The position numbers and the translations under genes were made by a program. From contig NC_013922.1 of NCBI RefSeq assembly GCF_000025625.1, forward strand, positions 1,488,001 to 1,552,000: DNA of 64,000 bases, given 5' to 3'. The notes below the pieces were generated by a model. That model was given only the letters and a program-made list of their open reading frames with translations, was not told the DNA's origin and did no database searches. The stretch comes from Natrialba magadii ATCC 43099 (lineage in GTDB: Archaea > Halobacteriota > Halobacteria > Halobacteriales > Natrialbaceae). How positions within the stretch are numbered: the first letter of the stretch is position 1; every line of letters starts with the position of its first letter. This document shows positions 4,575-63,877 of this stretch, one piece after another.

Positions 4575-7500
4575 ATGGGACCAGATCCATTCCGGACGGA
4601 CGACGGCGTGACAGCGCCGGCGAGTGCCGAGCGAGCGCACGCAGTAGCCTCCGAGGACGAGGCCGCTACGGACGCCGAATCGGGGGACGAGCAGCGCTCG
4701 CGCCCGTGGGGACTCACCCTGCTGGCCGCCGCCGTCGCCGCCGTGATCGTTGTTCCGGTCGCCTGGATCGGCGTGATGGCGCTCACCGTCGATCTCGAAC
4801 GGGCGCTGTCGATCGTCTTCCGCCCGATGACGCTCGAAGTCCTCACGAACACGCTCGTCCTGATCGCGCTCGTCACCACCTTCTCGGTGCTCATCGGGGT
4901 GCCACTCGCGATACTGACGGTGCTGACGGACCTCCCCTGCAGGCGGTTCTGGCTGGCCGCACTCGCGCTCCCGCTCGTCATCCCGAGCTACACCAGCGCG
5001 TATGCCTTCATCTCCATCTGGGGGCCACACGGGCTGGCCCAGTCGCTCGTCGAACCGCTCGGCATTGCCTCGCTGCCCGAACTCTACGGCATGCCCGGCA
5101 CCGTCGCCATCCTCACGCTGTACAACTACCCGTTCGTCTTCATCACCACCGTCGCGGCGCTGCGCGCGTTCGACAAGACGTACATCGACGCCGCTCGCAC
5201 CCTCGAAGACAACCTGTTCGGCGTCTTTCGGGAGGTCGTCCTCCCGATGACGAAACCCGCCATCGCCGCCGGCGCGCTGCTCGCCGCCCTCGAGACGGCC
5301 GGCGACTTCGGCGTCCCCGCCATGTTGCGACTCAACGTCTTCACGCGCCAGATCTACGTCGAACACAACGCGCTCTCTCACGACTACGCCGCGATGCTCT
5401 CCTTGCACCTCGTCGCAATCACGCTCGTCATCCTCGTCCTCGAGTACGCCGTGCGCGAACACCGAACGATCCACGGTGGGAGTCGCGGCGGCTCGCGCTC
5501 GTACACGTTCCACCTCGGTGCCTGGAAGTGGCCGGCGCTGGCCGTCTGCGCCGCCATCGTCGGCCTCGCCGTCATCCTGCCGGTGTCGGTGCTGCTCTGG
5601 TGGCTCGTCCGCGGTCCCGAGACCTACGTCGGCGCGTTCGGCTTCCGACTCGAGTACGCGCTGAACTCGGTGTCGGTCTCGCTGCTGGCCGCGCTCGCGG
5701 CGGTCGTGCTCGCGCTGCCGGTTGCGTACCTCTCTGCCAGATACCGGTCGCTCGCGTCGACGGTACTCGAGCGCGCGACGTACGTCGGCTTCGCCGTGCC
5801 CGGCGTCGTCATCGGACTGAGCCTTGTCTACTTCGGATCGGCCTACGCACCGACGCTGTACCAGACGATTCCGTTGCTCGTTTTCGCGTACGTCGTGCTC
5901 TACCTGCCGCTTGCGGTCGGTGCGGCCAGGACGGCGTTTCTCTACGTCAACCCGCGGTTCGTCGAGGCCGCCCGGTCGCTCGGCTGTCCACCGCGCACAG
6001 CGTTCCGCCGGGTGACGCTCCCGCTGGTCGTCCCTGGACTCGTCGCCGGCGGCGCGCTGGTCTTTCTCCACGGGATGAAAGAGCTACCCGCAACGCTCCT
6101 CCTCCGCCCCGCCGGGTTCGACTCGCTCGCGACGTTCATCTGGATGGCCGAGCGCAACGCCTACTACGGCTATGCGGCGGTTCCCGCGCTCGTCCTCGTC
6201 TGCGTCTCAGCGCTGGCAATCGTCGGCGTGTTGCCTGGCAATGGCACCGAACTCTGGCGGCGTGTGCGTCGCCGTATCGGGACCAAACGTATGAACTCGC
6301 CAAATCAGAACGACGAGACGACCGACCGCGACGACACAGACCCGTTCAACCAATCCGGTGGTCCACCCACACGGACGCGGAGCGCGACTGACGGCGGGAA
6401 CCCCGTTCAAGACGACACACCCAACCGCTCTCGATCGGACAACGAGGAATCCAACCGTTCGCTATCGGACAGCGATGCGTCGCCCGTACTCGAACTCGAG
6501 TGCGTCACGAAATCCTACGGCGCGCGACCCGCCGTGTCGGACCTCTCGCTTTCAGTCCAGGAGGGCGAACTGCTCACGTTGCTCGGCCCTTCCGGCTGTG
6601 GGAAGACGACGACGCTGCGCCTGATTGCGGGACTCGTGCGACCCGATAGCGGCACCATCCGGATCCGCAACGACTCTGTGGCAGACGCCGCTGACGAGAC
6701 GTTCGTCCCATCCGAAGAGCGCGACGTCGGCATCGTCTTCCAGGATTTCGCGCTCTTCCCTCACAAGACGGTCGCGGAGAACGTCGCCTTCGGCCTCGGT
6801 GACCGTGATGGGGCCGGCGAGAATGGACGGCCTGCCGACGAAATTGTCGACGACCTACTCGAGTTAGTCGGGCTCAGTGACTACGGCGACCGGTTCCCGG
6901 ATGAACTCTCCGGCGGCCAGAAACAGCGCATCGCGCTGGCGCGGTCGCTCGCCCCTGAACCGGACGTGTTGTTGCTCGACGAACCGCTGTCGAACCTCGA
7001 CGCCGGCCTTCGCGTTCAGATGCGCGAAACCGTTTCGGAAATACTCGACCGGGTCGACGTGACGGCGGTCTGGGTGACCCACGACCAGACCGAGGCGCTC
7101 TCGGTTGGCGATCGGACCGCCGTAATGATCGACGGGGAGATTGCCCAGGCCGATTCCCCGAGAGCGCTGTTCATGCGCCCCGAATCGCGGGCGGTCGCCG
7201 ACTTTCTGGGACAGGCGAGCTACCTCCCCGGACGACAGAACGCCACCGGGGTCGTCGAAACGCCGATCGGAACGCTCGACGGAGATCGTGTAGCAGTGCA
7301 GTCCAGCGCTAAACGGGGTGGGTCTACGGACCAAGAGCAGGCACAGGAGCGCAACGACAGTGGCAACAGTAGTGACACCGACGCCGGTGCAGACGCCGAC
7401 GCCGACGCCACCAGCAACAACGAGGACAACAGCAGCACCACCCACAACCTCAACCTCGACCTCCTCCTCCGCCCCGACGACATCTCCATTACCAACAGCG

Positions 7501-59270: not shown

Positions 59271-59861
59271 ATGGACCTCGGACTGCTCTACAGCGGAGGG
59301 AAAGACTCGACGCTCGCCGCGCTTCTCCTCGACGAGTTCTACGACGTCACCCTCACCACGGCACACTTCGGCATTAGCAACGACTGGAAACACGCCCGCG
59401 AAACCGCCCGCGCCACCGGCTTCGAGTTCGAGCGCCTCGAACTCGATCCTGACGTAGCCCGCGAGGCCGTCGACCGGATTCGGGAGGACGGCTTCCCGCG
59501 CAACGGCATCCAGCACGTTCACCAGCACGCACTCGAGACGCTCGCCGCAGGACGGTTCGATGCGATTGCAGATGGTACCCGGCGCGACGATCGGGTCCCT
59601 ACTGTCTCGCGCGCACAGGCCCAGAGCCTCGAGGACCGCCACGGCGTCGATTACATCGCGCCGCTGTCCGGCTTCGGTCGGACGGCCGTCGATCGACTCG
59701 TGGAGGATCGCCTCGACGTGACGGTGGGTCCAAGTGAGGAGATCGACCGCGCAGACTACGAGGCAGAACTTCGGGACCTCATCGCCGAGAAAGACGGGCC
59801 GACTGCGGTTACGGACGTGTTTCCGGACCACGAGCAGACGTACGTGACCGACGTTCGGTGA
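59271..59861 (+). CDS. PP-loop ATPase (Dph6/DUF7411-like)
   Basis: A 196-residue protein with the PP-loop GLLYSGGKDSTLAALLL at the N-terminus, then HFGISNDWKHARETARATG, HQHALETLAAGRFDAIADGT and IAPLSGFGRT. The family is an adenine-nucleotide alpha hydrolase. Relatives include diphthamide synthetase and tRNA-modifying enzymes, but the exact reaction is not settled. I start it at 59271 (MDLGLLYSGG). It follows pdcd5 by 13 bp and is likely co-transcribed. Confidence 0.85.
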   Translation: MDLGLLYSGGKDSTLAALLLDEFYDVTLTTAHFGISNDWKHARETARATGFEFERLELDPDVAREAVDRIREDGFPRNGIQHVHQHALETLAAGRFDAIADGTRRDDRVPTVSRAQAQSLEDRHGVDYIAPLSGFGRTAVDRLVEDRLDVTVGPSEEIDRADYEAELRDLIAEKDGPTAVTDVFPDHEQTYVTDVR

Positions 59862-59942: not shown

Positions 59943-60518
59943 CTACACGTCGTGAATCGAAACGATCGTCTCATCCTCGAGGTCGACCCGGACGACGTGC
60001 GAAGGAGTCCGTTCGTTGACGCCACGGAGTTCGACGATTGCTCTGTCAGTCCGATACGAACCATCTCGAGTGACAACGATGGAATCAGTGGATTCCGTCA
60101 CTTCGAAATCGATCTTCTCGGTGTCGTCGGTCTCGTTCAGGGACAGCGCTACCTGTTCGACCGGTGAGACGGACAGTTCGTAGTCGTCGCGTTCGTGAAG
60201 ATACTGCTGGACAGTATCGTTGCTCGTTGCAGTTTCGATCGCTTGTTCGCGGTCATCGGCGTGTATCGGCTCTTGCTCTTCGGTCGTAATCGTATATTCG
60301 CCGTCGGTTTCGACGATTTCTACGGTCGTCACGTTCGATAAATCGTCACTGACAGTGTAGGATTCACCACCCTGGGACAGCGTCATGTGCTCGTTCGTGA
60401 CCGAAATCTCGGTGTGATCTCCACCCGAACTGGCGATTGCAAGCGCTGTCCCCGTCCCAGCAATTGCCACTACCAGAATGGCCACTCCGAGAACGGTAGT
60501 GCGAGTGGGTTCGATCAT
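59943..60518 (-). CDS. Exported or membrane-anchored protein, PepSY-like
   Basis: A 191-residue protein with one N-terminal hydrophobic segment (TVLGVAILVVAIAGTGTALA) and an acidic exported domain. The motif pattern (REQAIETATSNDTVQQYL, YELSVSPVEQ, VVRVDLEDETIVSIHDV) resembles PepSY-type domains, but the match is weak. Start at 60518 (MIEPTRT). Divergent from a membrane-anchored winged-helix protein, with which it shares a 121-bp AT-rich spacer. Confidence 0.6.
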   Translation of the reverse strand: MIEPTRTTVLGVAILVVAIAGTGTALAIASSGGDHTEISVTNEHMTLSQGGESYTVSDDLSNVTTVEIVETDGEYTITTEEQEPIHADDREQAIETATSNDTVQQYLHERDDYELSVSPVEQVALSLNETDDTEKIDFEVTESTDSIVVTRDGSYRTDRAIVELRGVNERTPSHVVRVDLEDETIVSIHDV

Positions 60519-60639
60519 ACCAACGTATCGACCGGAACAGTCAATCAACGTTTCGAGAAACAGGTATGAAACAAGTTGGAAACTAGTTGTAGCGCCGTTT
60601 CACGAAGACTATTAGAGGGACTTGATCGATACGGCGTCT

Positions 60640-61233
60640 ATGAGAAATATATCCGGCTGGCAACTACTTGCAGCTGTCATATTTCTAGCGGCGACACTCG
60701 TTTTCACGGTGCAACTTATCAATCCGACACCAGTCGTGGTCTCGGTCGGCGACAACGGATCGGACGTCGTCGAAGCGGGTGAACAGTTTCGTTACACCGA
60801 AGTCGGGATTATCACGGTCGCCGCATGGCTTATGGGAGCGAGTATGCTGTATCTCGTCGTCAGTGTGGAACGCGATACGATACTGACGAAACCGACGACC
60901 GCCACATCATCAGCGGCATCGTCCGTGGGGTCCGACGGTGCAGAACGATCCGTCCACCTCGAGTTTGCGGACGATACGAACTCTCCAGTCGAACAACATC
61001 GAACTCAGTTCAACGAAACGACCGACCGACTCGACAATACTGAACGGGAGATTTATTCTATGGTCCTCGATGCCGACGGCGAAATCCAGCAACGAAACAT
61101 CGTCGCTAACACCGATTTCTCGAAAGCGACGGTCACGCGGACGCTCGACTCCCTCGAGGCGAAAGGCTTACTCGAACGGAAACGACAGGGTGTTGGAAAC
61201 GTCGTCGTCCTCCAGGAAACCGTCTCACCGTGA
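60640..61233 (+). CDS. Membrane-anchored winged-helix regulator
   Basis: A 197-residue protein: helix 1 (about 6-26; WQLLAAVIFLAATLVFTVQL), an extracellular loop of about 30 residues (PTPVVVSVGDNGSDVVEAG), helix 2 (about 56-76; IITVAAWLMGASMLYLVV), then a cytosolic linker and a C-terminal MarR-like winged helix (about 128-190; DREIYSMVL-type helix, FSKATVTRTLDSLEAKGLLE, RKRQGVGNVVVL). It combines a surface sensor loop with DNA binding in one chain. The likely targets are the divergent exported protein and the downstream secreted protein (inference). Start at 60640 (MRNISGW). Confidence 0.78.
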   Translation: MRNISGWQLLAAVIFLAATLVFTVQLINPTPVVVSVGDNGSDVVEAGEQFRYTEVGIITVAAWLMGASMLYLVVSVERDTILTKPTTATSSAASSVGSDGAERSVHLEFADDTNSPVEQHRTQFNETTDRLDNTEREIYSMVLDADGEIQQRNIVANTDFSKATVTRTLDSLEAKGLLERKRQGVGNVVVLQETVSP

Positions 61234-61572
61234 ATGGCGTCGCAAATCTGGATCGGCAGGTTACACTCACCAAAACCTCCACATTCTCGCTCCATACGGT
61301 CCTCAAGCCGCAGATACACAGGTGTGGAACCAGTTTATAACCAGTTCTATTTTGTTACCAATCAAGACTTATCATGTCTTTCAGTCAACGATCTCTCGAG
61401 AGCGATTCGATAGAGTCCCCTCGCACGTCGACTTCGGTTGCTGCCGGACAAGCCACTGTACAGACCGGTCGCACTCGAGACGCGATCGGGTGTGTGCTAA
61501 CGGTGTCTGGTAGTGAGACGTCACAGGAGACCCGCCAGAGATCGCTCTCGTGACACCCCACAGTAAGAGACC
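61234..61572. other. Leader region of the secreted acidic protein
   Basis: About 339 bp. GTTTATAACC (61333-61342) is a TATA candidate. It lies about 35 bp before the ATG of a 59-codon frame (61374-61553; MSFSQRSLES...), which ends 19 bp before the secreted-protein ATG. The short frame is Ser/Thr-rich and unrecognised. It may be a small gene or just the untranslated leader. Confidence 0.45.
61374..61553 (+). CDS. Possible 59-residue leader ORF
   Basis: Starts MSFSQRSLES, contains one cysteine and many Ser/Thr, and ends QRSLS. Position after a TATA box and just ahead of the secreted-protein gene suggests it could be translated from the same mRNA. There is no homology I recognise and no membrane segment. 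Low support. Confidence 0.3.
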   Translation: MSFSQRSLESDSIESPRTSTSVAAGQATVQTGRTRDAIGCVLTVSGSETSQETRQRSLS

Positions 61573-62253
61573 ATGAAAAAAGTACTGACAATCACACTGG
61601 CGCTTACGATGTTGCTCGCAGTCGCTGCGGGCGGCGCTATAGCGACAGAACAGACGACTGAATCACAAACGATCGAGTTCGGCGAGTTCGAGATCGATCT
61701 CGTGCAATCGGACACAGACTCGACCGAAACGGAGTCAGACGAGACGACATCGGTCGATCTGAACGAGTGGAACAACGATAGTAACGACGCAGACTCGCCC
61801 GATGGAAGCACGAACGGGTTACAGACGGTCTCGATCGACGAGCTCGACCTCGATCTGATCGAGGCAGACGATGGCTCCTCCGAACCGGTCGAATCCACGA
61901 TAATCGACCTGGAAGAGTGGACCGCCGCGGAGAAACCGACCGAGGCAATCGGTCCCGACTCGTTCAGTTTCTCGGATGCGGTCGAACCGGACGAAGCGAA
62001 CCTTCACGGTTCGTTCACGTGGAGCGAAGGGGAACGCGTCGAGATTCCCGTCCAGTGGACGCCAGCCGACCAGGACATCGTCGTCGGAATCGTCGACCTC
62101 GACCAAGGCGAAGGTCCCGGCGCAGTCGTCAGCAATGGAGCCGACACGGTCGAGTTGACGGTCCCCGAAGACAGCGACGAGTGGGCAGTTATGATCGGTA
62201 ACCCCGGCGAGAACGCCGGTACGGTGTTCTATAGCGGTAGCGTCGAGGCGTAA
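61573..62253 (+). CDS. Secreted acidic protein with internal duplication
   Basis: A 226-residue exported protein. A signal peptide (MKKVLTITLALTMLLAVAAG) cleaves after AIA. Two related acidic units of about 45 residues follow: FEIDLVQSD...SVDLNEWN (about 37-70) and LDLDLIEAD...IIDLEEWT (about 92-117). A C-terminal beta-rich domain (about 125-226; LHGSFTWSEGERVEIPVQW, DIVVGIVDLDQGEGPGAVV) resembles carbohydrate-binding or pre-peptidase-type sandwich domains but is not identified. No catalytic motif is seen. Probably a surface or secreted factor controlled by the upstream membrane HTH protein (inference). Confidence 0.7.
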   Translation: MKKVLTITLALTMLLAVAAGGAIATEQTTESQTIEFGEFEIDLVQSDTDSTETESDETTSVDLNEWNNDSNDADSPDGSTNGLQTVSIDELDLDLIEADDGSSEPVESTIIDLEEWTAAEKPTEAIGPDSFSFSDAVEPDEANLHGSFTWSEGERVEIPVQWTPADQDIVVGIVDLDQGEGPGAVVSNGADTVELTVPEDSDEWAVMIGNPGENAGTVFYSGSVEA

Positions 62254-62578: not shown

Positions 62579-63877
62579 ATGTACGACCGGATCAAGGGCT
62601 TTCGTGACTTCTATCCCGGCGAGATGGCCGCCAGACGGGCGACCATCGACACGCTGGAGGACACCGCCCGCGGCTACGGCTTCCGCGAGATTGGCACGCC
62701 CGCACTCGAGCGCGCCGAAATGTGGACCGACAAGAGCGGTGACGACATCGTCGACGAACTCTACGCCTTCGAGGACCAGGGCGGCCGCCACGTCACCCTG
62801 ACCCCCGAACTGACGCCGACCGTCGCGCGGATGGTCGTCGCCAAGCAACAGGAACTCTCGAAACCCATCAAGTGGTTCTCGACGCGCCCGTTCTGGCGCT
62901 ACGAGCAGGTCCAGCAGGGCCGCCAGCGCGAGTTCTACCAGACCAACGTCGACATCTTCGGCTCCTCGGAGCCCGAAGCAGACGCCGAAATTCTCGCCTG
63001 GGCCGCAGACGCGATGACCAACCTCGGACTCACCGGCGAGCACTTCGAGTTCCGCATCTCCCACCGCGATATTCTGGGCGGGGTTCTAGAGAGCTACGAC
63101 GCCGACGTCGACACCGAGGATGCCATCCGTGCGGTCGACAAGTCGGACAAACTCTCGACCGTGGAGTACCATGACCTGCTGATCGGCGCGGGACTCACGG
63201 CCGACCAGGCCGTCGAGTTTGACGATCTCATCGCCGGCGGCGACTTAGAGGACGTCCGGGAGTTCGCAAACACCGAACGCGTCGACGCCGCGGTCGACAA
63301 CCTCCAGAACGTCCTCGCGGCAGCCGACGACTTCGGCGCGCGCGAGTTCTGTACGATCTCACTCGAGACGGCCCGCGGGCTGGACTACTACACGGGCGTC
63401 GTCTTCGAGTGCTTCGACTCCGCAGGCGAGGTCTCGCGGTCGATCTTCGGTGGTGGGCGCTACGACACTCTCATCGAGTCCTTCGGTGGCCAGCCAACGC
63501 CTGCGGTCGGTGTCGCACCCGGTCACGCGACGCTCTCGCTGCTGTGCCAGCGCGCTGGTGTCTGGCCCGCAGAGGAGGTCACGACGGACTACTACGTGCT
63601 CCAGATCGGCGACACGCGGACAGAAGCCGCACAGATAACCCGAGAGCTGCGCGAGCGCGGGCACGTCGTCGAGACCGATGTCGCCGGCCGGTCGTTCGGT
63701 TCGCAACTGAACTACGCGGACTCGATTAACGCCGAAACGGTCGTCATCGCAGGCGAACAGGACCTCGCAAACGACGAGGTGACGATCAAGGATATGGCGT
63801 CGGGCGATCAGTTGCAGGTTCCGGTCGAGTCGTTCCCCGGTGAGCACGAGCAGCCGACGCTCGCCGACTTCGAATAA
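62579..63877 (+). CDS. hisS: Histidyl-tRNA synthetase
   Basis: Class II synthetase charging tRNA-His. The 432-residue chain has motif 1 (YDRIKGFRDFYPGEMAARRA), motif 2 (WFSTRPFWRYEQVQQGRQREFYQ), the histidine-specific region ARGLDYYTGVVFECF, and motif 3 (GGGRYDTLIESFGG.PTPAVG). A C-terminal anticodon domain follows (YYVLQIGDTRTEAA; VETDVAGRSFGSQLNYAD). The start ATG is 68 bp after the palindromic element copy C. Downstream sequence to the window end (63878-64000) shows no complete gene. Confidence 0.97.
   Translation: MYDRIKGFRDFYPGEMAARRATIDTLEDTARGYGFREIGTPALERAEMWTDKSGDDIVDELYAFEDQGGRHVTLTPELTPTVARMVVAKQQELSKPIKWFSTRPFWRYEQVQQGRQREFYQTNVDIFGSSEPEADAEILAWAADAMTNLGLTGEHFEFRISHRDILGGVLESYDADVDTEDAIRAVDKSDKLSTVEYHDLLIGAGLTADQAVEFDDLIAGGDLEDVREFANTERVDAAVDNLQNVLAAADDFGAREFCTISLETARGLDYYTGVVFECFDSAGEVSRSIFGGGRYDTLIESFGGQPTPAVGVAPGHATLSLLCQRAGVWPAEEVTTDYYVLQIGDTRTEAAQITRELRERGHVVETDVAGRSFGSQLNYADSINAETVVIAGEQDLANDEVTIKDMASGDQLQVPVESFPGEHEQPTLADFE

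Follow-up and report, generated by a model that had tools for sequence, protein, structure and literature searches.

A conserved haloarchaeal gene trio encoding a putative self-targeted membrane regulator with phased operator-like arrays

Three genes at one locus

Near the end of a 64,000-nucleotide stretch of the Natrialba magadii ATCC 43099 genome (hereafter the window, whose first letter is position 1), three adjacent genes encode a predicted membrane-bound winged-helix protein (A), an exported protein (B) and a secreted acidic protein (C). Gene A (60640..61233, plus strand, 197 amino acids) was defined by Pfam matches, hydropathy and alignment. Gene B (59943..60518, minus strand, 191 amino acids), the product of which is exported and probably membrane-anchored, was defined by the list of open reading frames (ORFs), alignment and an AlphaFold model, and gene C (61573..62253, plus strand, 226 amino acids) by its ORF, an internal duplication and a structure model. 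Orthologue starts favour ATG 60640 over TTG 60622 for A and ATG 60518 over TTG 60548 for B. All three ORFs, which an original prediction made from the DNA sequence had placed here, are present and read as coding by codon usage. Between B and A lies an operator-like array with no assigned strand (60550..60601), recognized from exact half-sites and a genome-wide pattern search. Gene C is preceded by a candidate promoter/operator block (61326..61382, plus strand), made up of degenerate half-sites and a CTTTC motif, and by a leader (61384..61572, plus strand) described from its sequence and fold. The sequence features set out below suggest that A, B and C most likely form one closed regulatory unit.

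Gene A encodes a membrane winged-helix protein

Protein A starts with two hydrophobic segments (hydropathy peaks at residues about 3-34 and 55-76) and ends in a winged helix-turn-helix (wHTH) domain at residues 130-193, with a linker in between that varies in length. The wHTH domain matches DUF7343 with 44.7 bits (Pfam cut-off 27.6), and MarR_2 (28.2 bits, cut-off 27) and MarR (25.1 bits, cut-off 24.6) also exceed their cut-offs. It is of the winged-helix type of Lrs14-like and MarR proteins (PDB 6cmv, E 2e-4; 8aga, E 0.002). Across 17 aligned A sequences, both hydrophobic segments are kept and the outside loop and wHTH are conserved, whereas the linker is not; the loop spans ~25-30 residues with the consensus QLxNPxPVVVSVxxxGxxVxxLGxxFxYRxVG. 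Hydropathy, Pfam and alignment thus agree with the topology first proposed for A, namely two helices, a loop on the outside and a winged helix in the cytosol.

With a predicted DNA-binding domain and at least one predicted transmembrane region in one chain, A fits the broad class of transmembrane transcription regulators, and only its wHTH is MarR-like. Full-length MarR proteins combine the wHTH with flanking helices that build a soluble dimer domain. In A the wHTH sequence was found but those flanking helices were not: the MarR-type match spans residues 144-183 only, and the remainder is membrane hairpin and variable linker. Eighteen PADLOC families match A (best E 6e-6), mostly of Csa3/CasR/CARF type. 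As all of these matches fall on the wHTH region, and none was found for B, C or one B-like C, we rejected the trio as a defence system.

The trio is conserved across haloarchaea

To describe the distribution of the trio, we drew on 391 genomes of the class, with E thresholds of 1e-15 for A and 1e-6 for B. Of these genomes, 78, in 30 of 86 genera, have A and 72 have B; the two occur together in 71 (Fisher p about 1e-68, uncorrected for phylogeny). The sole genome with B and without A (G392) carries a piece of B. Seven genomes have A without B (G027, G059, G120, G248, G365, G367 and G394), and in four of them (G120, G248, G365 and G367) the A match is partial. Among 61 close genomes there are 18 A loci at E below 1e-20. 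A looser search (E 0.001) gave hits in 54 of the 61, mostly to the wHTH alone, and these were not counted as A.

In total, 84 places with A were listed and 80 were counted (L061-L078 and L153-L214). Partial places in G367, G248 and G365 and the second one in G114 were dropped, the partial place in G120 (L214) was kept, and two weak matches (L079 and L080) stayed outside the counts. B adjoins A in 75 of the 80 loci, and B together with a secreted C in 71, so that the neighbourhood conservation proposed as a check on the original prediction is present. B and C were counted with single-pass profiles, because the iterated B and C2 searches came to take in more than one ORF at a locus and the C3 search spread from 10 to 93 hits. 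A second, named set of loci (L081-L122), which overlaps the 80 and was not added to the counts, has B in 40 of 42; of the two exceptions, one is a wHTH-only match from Nitrososphaerales and the other a weak match. The former, L120 (1765-2262, from a metagenome-assembled genome), holds a relative of the A winged helix only, with no B or C matches nearby.

Two gene orders account for the B-bearing loci. In type I (50 loci) B is divergent from A and C typically follows A, whereas in type II (25 loci) the two are co-directional, with B first, and C typically lies divergently upstream of B. One locus placed in type I, L071, departs from this arrangement of B and C. On the A tree, two changes are needed to account for the layout label. 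Among the 18 loci displayed, the genes outside the trio mostly differ from locus to locus, suggesting that the trio is held together beyond plain synteny.

The module is present in Haloferax mediterranei and Haloarcula hispanica, both of which are genetically workable species, and relatives of A are found on plasmids in 16 records. Public annotation names A a 'MarR family transcriptional regulator' in most of these plasmid records; B and C are 'hypothetical protein' in the two records examined. N. magadii itself carries two copies of the module, the second of which (L062, G000:C1:2233158-2245697) has B and a C of the window type. This second copy adjoins a gene for an ABC-type ATPase, and in two of its relatives (L073 and L075) a gene for a transporter-like substrate-binding protein lies beside C.

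Phased operator-like arrays are nearly confined to the module

In N. magadii the 121-bp gap between B and A contains five exact half-sites, compared with 0.27 expected from the rate in the window: GAAAC at 60557, 60568 and 60579, in steps of 11 bp, and GTTTC at 60550 and 60597. The same enrichment is found across loci. There are 193 GAAAC/GTTTC half-sites over 50 B/A regions (18.9 in shuffles), 133 over 25 C/B regions (12.5) and 100 over 43 A/C regions (16.9), against a background rate of 0.51 per 230 bp. At least three half-sites are present in 46 of 50 B/A, 22 of 25 C/B and 18 of 43 A/C regions. The commonest same-strand spacing in the B/A and C/B regions is 11 bp (66 and 49 pairs, respectively), followed by 22 bp. 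The arrays move with gene order: in type I they occupy the B/A gap, with weaker sites before C, and in type II they occupy the C/B gap, with A behind B.

We then sought a 23-bp operator pattern, GAAACNNGTTNGAAACNNGTTTC, with up to two mismatches in 75 A-bearing genomes. It is present in 55 of them, compared with 0 of 75 for a reversed-pattern control, and of the 90 distinct positions 84, spread over 54 genomes, are no more than 979 bp from A; because the pattern was derived from the same loci, matches inside the module are partly built in, whereas the scarcity elsewhere and the control are unaffected. In the 4.44-Mb genome of N. magadii the sole match is at 60568-60590 of the window, between B and A. 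Among 38 genomes without A, four have one match each and three have one control match. As only 6 of the 90 positions lie elsewhere, a wider regulon was rejected. The operator-like array is, by this measure, nearly confined to the trio, and together with the co-inheritance of the three genes it supports the self-contained module envisaged in the original prediction.

The six positions outside the module are in G195, G298, G292, G228, G005 and G296. We examined the first four in context and found two of them inside predicted genes. The sites in G195 (L217, on G195:C10) and G298 (L218, on G298:C1), both at 1501-1523, are identical; they come from two genera and are intergenic, near a ferredoxin-like gene.

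Gene B encodes an exported protein, the proposed partner of A

Protein B has a single N-terminal hydrophobic segment followed by an exported part. No Pfam family reaches its cut-off for B, and no column is invariant across 41 aligned B proteins. PepSY was absent for the window's B and among 25 of the 28 families listed for those 41 proteins (E up to 0.1), and we therefore rejected B as a member of the PepSY family by sequence. The AlphaFold model (pLDDT 74, with most of the first 21 residues under 50) predicts an N-terminal beta region and a C-terminal cystatin/PepSY-like domain. Among the matches listed by a Foldseek search with the model none was significant, with RseB at rank 1 (E 0.068, probability 0.20). 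VIA-align placed the C-terminal half of B against an amine-oxidase domain with Z up to 8.0 (3.4 Å, 79 residues) and against the YpeB C-terminal domain with Z 6.8 (3.4 Å, 67 residues), values that, according to the program's own warning, may reflect merely a common arrangement. We take the matched amine-oxidase domain to have a cystatin-like fold and the YpeB domain to have the PepSY fold. Of the exported PepSY-like protein originally described, export is consistent with the N-terminal segment, and PepSY likeness is weakly suggested by the predicted fold.

One lone copy of B (L216, 4534-5139, contig C2 of G122), with no A or C matches, adjoins genes that by eye resemble an IS200/IS605-type transposon.

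Gene C encodes a secreted acidic protein behind a putative hairpin leader

Protein C was anticipated to be secreted, acidic and internally duplicated, and each of these features was found. It has a signal peptide and contains 53 Asp and Glu compared with 4 Lys and Arg residues, and residues about 27-66 align with residues 80-117 with a score of 75, which none of 1,000 shuffles reached (mean 29). In the structure model, residues 117-226 are mostly confident and form a jelly-roll, and residues 1-105 have pLDDT <50. One match is to 5sv5, of the bacterial pre-peptidase C-terminal (PPC) type (Foldseek E 9e-4, Z 8.7), with which many other jelly rolls tie; the window's C has no Pfam match to PPC. 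No family exceeded its curated cut-off, and a toxin or enzyme activity of C was rejected. Across the 80 loci, C belongs to a B-like family (C2/C4) in 64 and to the jelly-roll type of the window (C3) in 7. In Halorientalis regularis (L112, about 5418-7067), C is split into two matching parts ~1.65 kb apart, as by an insertion.

The TATA-driven leader first proposed for C stands in part: C starts 339 bp past the end of A, behind a block (61326-61382) that is promoter-like by prediction. This block contains the degenerate half-sites GGAAC at 61326 and ATAAC at 61337, 11 bp apart, and GTTAC at 61354, exactly 24 bp from CTTTC at 61378. A step of 24 or 35 bp from half-site to CTTTC recurs on the C side of type I loci (22 and 4 of 43, respectively), on the C side of type II loci (15 and 10 of 25) and on the B side of type I loci (17 and 15 of 50), where the shuffled set reaches at most 2.

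Downstream of CTTTC, the leader of the window's C has complementary arms, GAGAGCGAT (61398-61406) and ATCGCTCTC (61541-61549), and in many loci the stretch between CTTTC and the C start folds into a long hairpin. In 28 leaders of 60-200 nt (five others were too short for this set) the mean fold z is -2.7, with 18 below -2, compared with -1.1 for the start of the C coding region; the window's own leader has a z of -1.8. No consensus structure emerged when 24 leaders of 75-125 nt were folded together. Twelve better-aligning leaders among those 24 share an outer helix of 14 pairs, 6 of which vary in both arms. In these 12, which were chosen for alignability, 9 of 23 pairs vary in both arms, compared with a mean of 4.1 in shuffles, of which 1 in 500 was as high. 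Pairing falls from 81% to no more than 51% when the partner is slid along, and the structure itself came from 8 of the 12. These data support a hairpin in the C leader, with the structure derived from the sequences on which it was scored.

An autoregulated membrane-to-DNA module

The co-inheritance of the trio, the membrane-wHTH architecture of A and the module-restricted arrays can be read directly from the sequences. They lead us to favour, as the probable explanation, an autoregulated module composed of a membrane-tethered one-component regulator (A), its extracytoplasmic partner (B) and a secreted output (C). The two helices of A and its conserved outside loop would sense the cell surface, and its cytosolic winged helix would bind the GAAAC/GTTTC arrays. 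The 11-bp step would place neighbouring A subunits along the half-sites on one face of the DNA, which would suit a protein fixed in a flat membrane. Given that the arrays occur almost nowhere outside the module, the regulon of A would essentially be its own module. B, on the outside, might read the signal and act on the loop of A, as ToxS and TcpH do on their regulators. C would be the secreted output, and since in most loci it resembles B in profile, it may also compete with B and so close a feedback loop. The words 'envelope signalling', 'sensor' and 'effector', originally attached to the trio, name roles that we infer.

A stronger form of this model, which would make the trio a distinct archaeal principle of signalling by a closed module, is doubtful. 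In it, A would be lined up along the 11-bp-phased array flat against the membrane, gated by a PepSY-like B and reset by a secreted relative of B (C), and would report the state of an outside protein or polymer with itself as the sole target.

Several observations weigh against the autoregulated module. Some concern the operator: 21 of the 75 A genomes have no GAAACNNGTTNGAAACNNGTTTC match inside the module, among them G003, G004, G005 and G006, from the same genus as the window (G005 has one stray match elsewhere), and in the second N. magadii copy the pattern appears only at 7 mismatches, though a phased GTTTC array is visible. The type II array serves C and B and reaches A only via B. The window's own C promoter (L061) has no exact half-site; its link to the B/A array through AACNAGTTNNNAACNAGTT, found without mismatch at two places in the window, 60570 and 61328, comes from a motif defined after those sites had been seen. 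The 24-bp geometry hardly occurs beside B in type II loci (3 of 25) or beside A in type I loci. Others concern the genes. Profile hidden Markov models match no B in 5 of the 80 loci and no C in 9; among the latter, L063 ends at a contig edge soon after A, a secreted ORF occupies the place of C in L180 and L190, position points to B-like or C-like ORFs in L078 and L205, and the remaining four (L191, L074, L213 and L214) are either broken or ambiguous. The window's C lies outside the common C type, the acidic composition common to B and B-like C may contribute to their profile match (96% probability over 87 columns), and the correlation of the A and B trees (r 0.63, 0 of 500 permutations as high), in itself a point for the module, is uncorrected for species relatedness.

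One alternative concerns the sign of regulation. MarR-type wHTHs are often repressors, and a fixed step of 24 bp (or 35, that is, 24+11) leads from the last half-site down to CTTTC, which sits to the promoter side of the TATA-like region. A may repress an otherwise constitutive surface operon by blocking TFB or RNA polymerase at the array and CTTTC, an arrangement compatible with the autoregulated module and one to which we assign a substantial but lesser chance. Most half-sites, however, precede the TATA-like region, which is where PMC6396743 places the boxes of the Sulfolobus regulator ArnR. By this analogy, activation by A would be somewhat more likely than repression.

A second alternative, which we consider unlikely, assigns all sensing to A, which has its own conserved outside loop. 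A would still regulate the module, and B and C would be co-expressed surface or secreted effectors, for example envelope-binding or protease-modulating proteins; their shared promoter geometry and profile similarity are as expected of co-regulated products. This leaves unexplained why B follows A in 71 of 72 genomes while the type of C swaps between loci, a pattern in which B behaves like part of a regulatory core, and lone B copies look like strays.

We find it quite improbable that the trio serves secreted antagonism, with C acting against neighbouring cells, B giving membrane-bound protection and A as the regulator. C is exported and changes type between loci, and the module is patchy and has plasmid-borne A relatives, as such a system might be. 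Yet C has no catalytic or toxin family above the Pfam cut-off, neither B nor C has a PADLOC match, and the likeness of B and C in profile would be unusual for a toxin and its immunity protein. Chance proximity of three unrelated hypothetical genes, to which the lack of named families for B and C might point, has a negligible probability and was rejected on the occurrence of B and C with A in 71 of 80 loci with differing outer neighbours and on their shared operator-like array.

Relation to known regulators

Transmembrane transcription regulators are a known broad class that includes ToxR/ToxS, TcpP/TcpH and CadC, and ToxS and TcpH are tabled as associated proteins of membrane regulators in PMC10269533. 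The autoregulated module would resemble these systems in having a membrane-held one-component DNA-binding protein and, as for several of them, a membrane or periplasmic partner (PMC10269533). It goes beyond them in its operator arrays and secreted third gene. ToxR-type proteins have an N-terminal OmpR-type wHTH and one helix, whereas in A two helices come first and a wHTH of MarR/DUF7343 type ends the chain. No relationship between B and ToxS was found in the searches made.

Among archaeal proteins, PMC6396743 describes ArnR/ArnR1 of Sulfolobus as a membrane-bound one-component activator with an N-terminal HTH, a HAMP-like and sensing domain and two C-terminal transmembrane helices. Its boxes, two inverted repeats TCGAC-N5-GTCGA, lie within -43 to -84, upstream of the BRE/TATA elements (PMC6396743). 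A shares with ArnR its archaeal origin, two (in A predicted) transmembrane helices and, as candidates, sites upstream of a TATA-like region, but the ArnR targets given there are pili and archaellum genes, whereas A would target its own module (PMC6396743). We rejected A as a member of the ArnR family, as its helices are N-terminal and its wHTH C-terminal, the reverse of ArnR. Lrs14-like and MarR regulators are soluble; A has the same winged-helix type but replaces the remainder with a membrane hairpin and linker. RseB has a two-domain LolA-like fold that binds an anti-sigma factor, and the partner of YpeB is a lytic enzyme. The resemblance of B to RseB and YpeB is one of weak fold similarity, no sequence relation having been found, and the partner of B would be a wHTH membrane protein rather than an anti-sigma factor or a lytic enzyme.

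The open-access literature, which excludes most subscription papers, gave no description of the module and no paper on 'DUF7343'. We rate the trio as an undescribed family, within a known class, of membrane regulators that would target their own module and have a conserved exodomain partner and phased arrays of operator-like sites. To our knowledge, little is known of how haloarchaea sense events outside their single membrane. If the model holds, the trio would represent a compact, widespread membrane-to-DNA pathway in haloarchaea with a predicted binding site, and that prediction gains sharpness from the confinement of the operator to the module. The phased arrays would also offer a test case for DNA binding by a membrane-fixed protein.

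Flanking genes

In the window, the trio is flanked by two genes. The one adjoining B (59271-59861) encodes a DUF7411/PRK14561 protein with weak similarity to Asn-synthase and QueC-like proteins. The gene on the other side (62579-63877), read by eye from its sequence, is presumably hisS.

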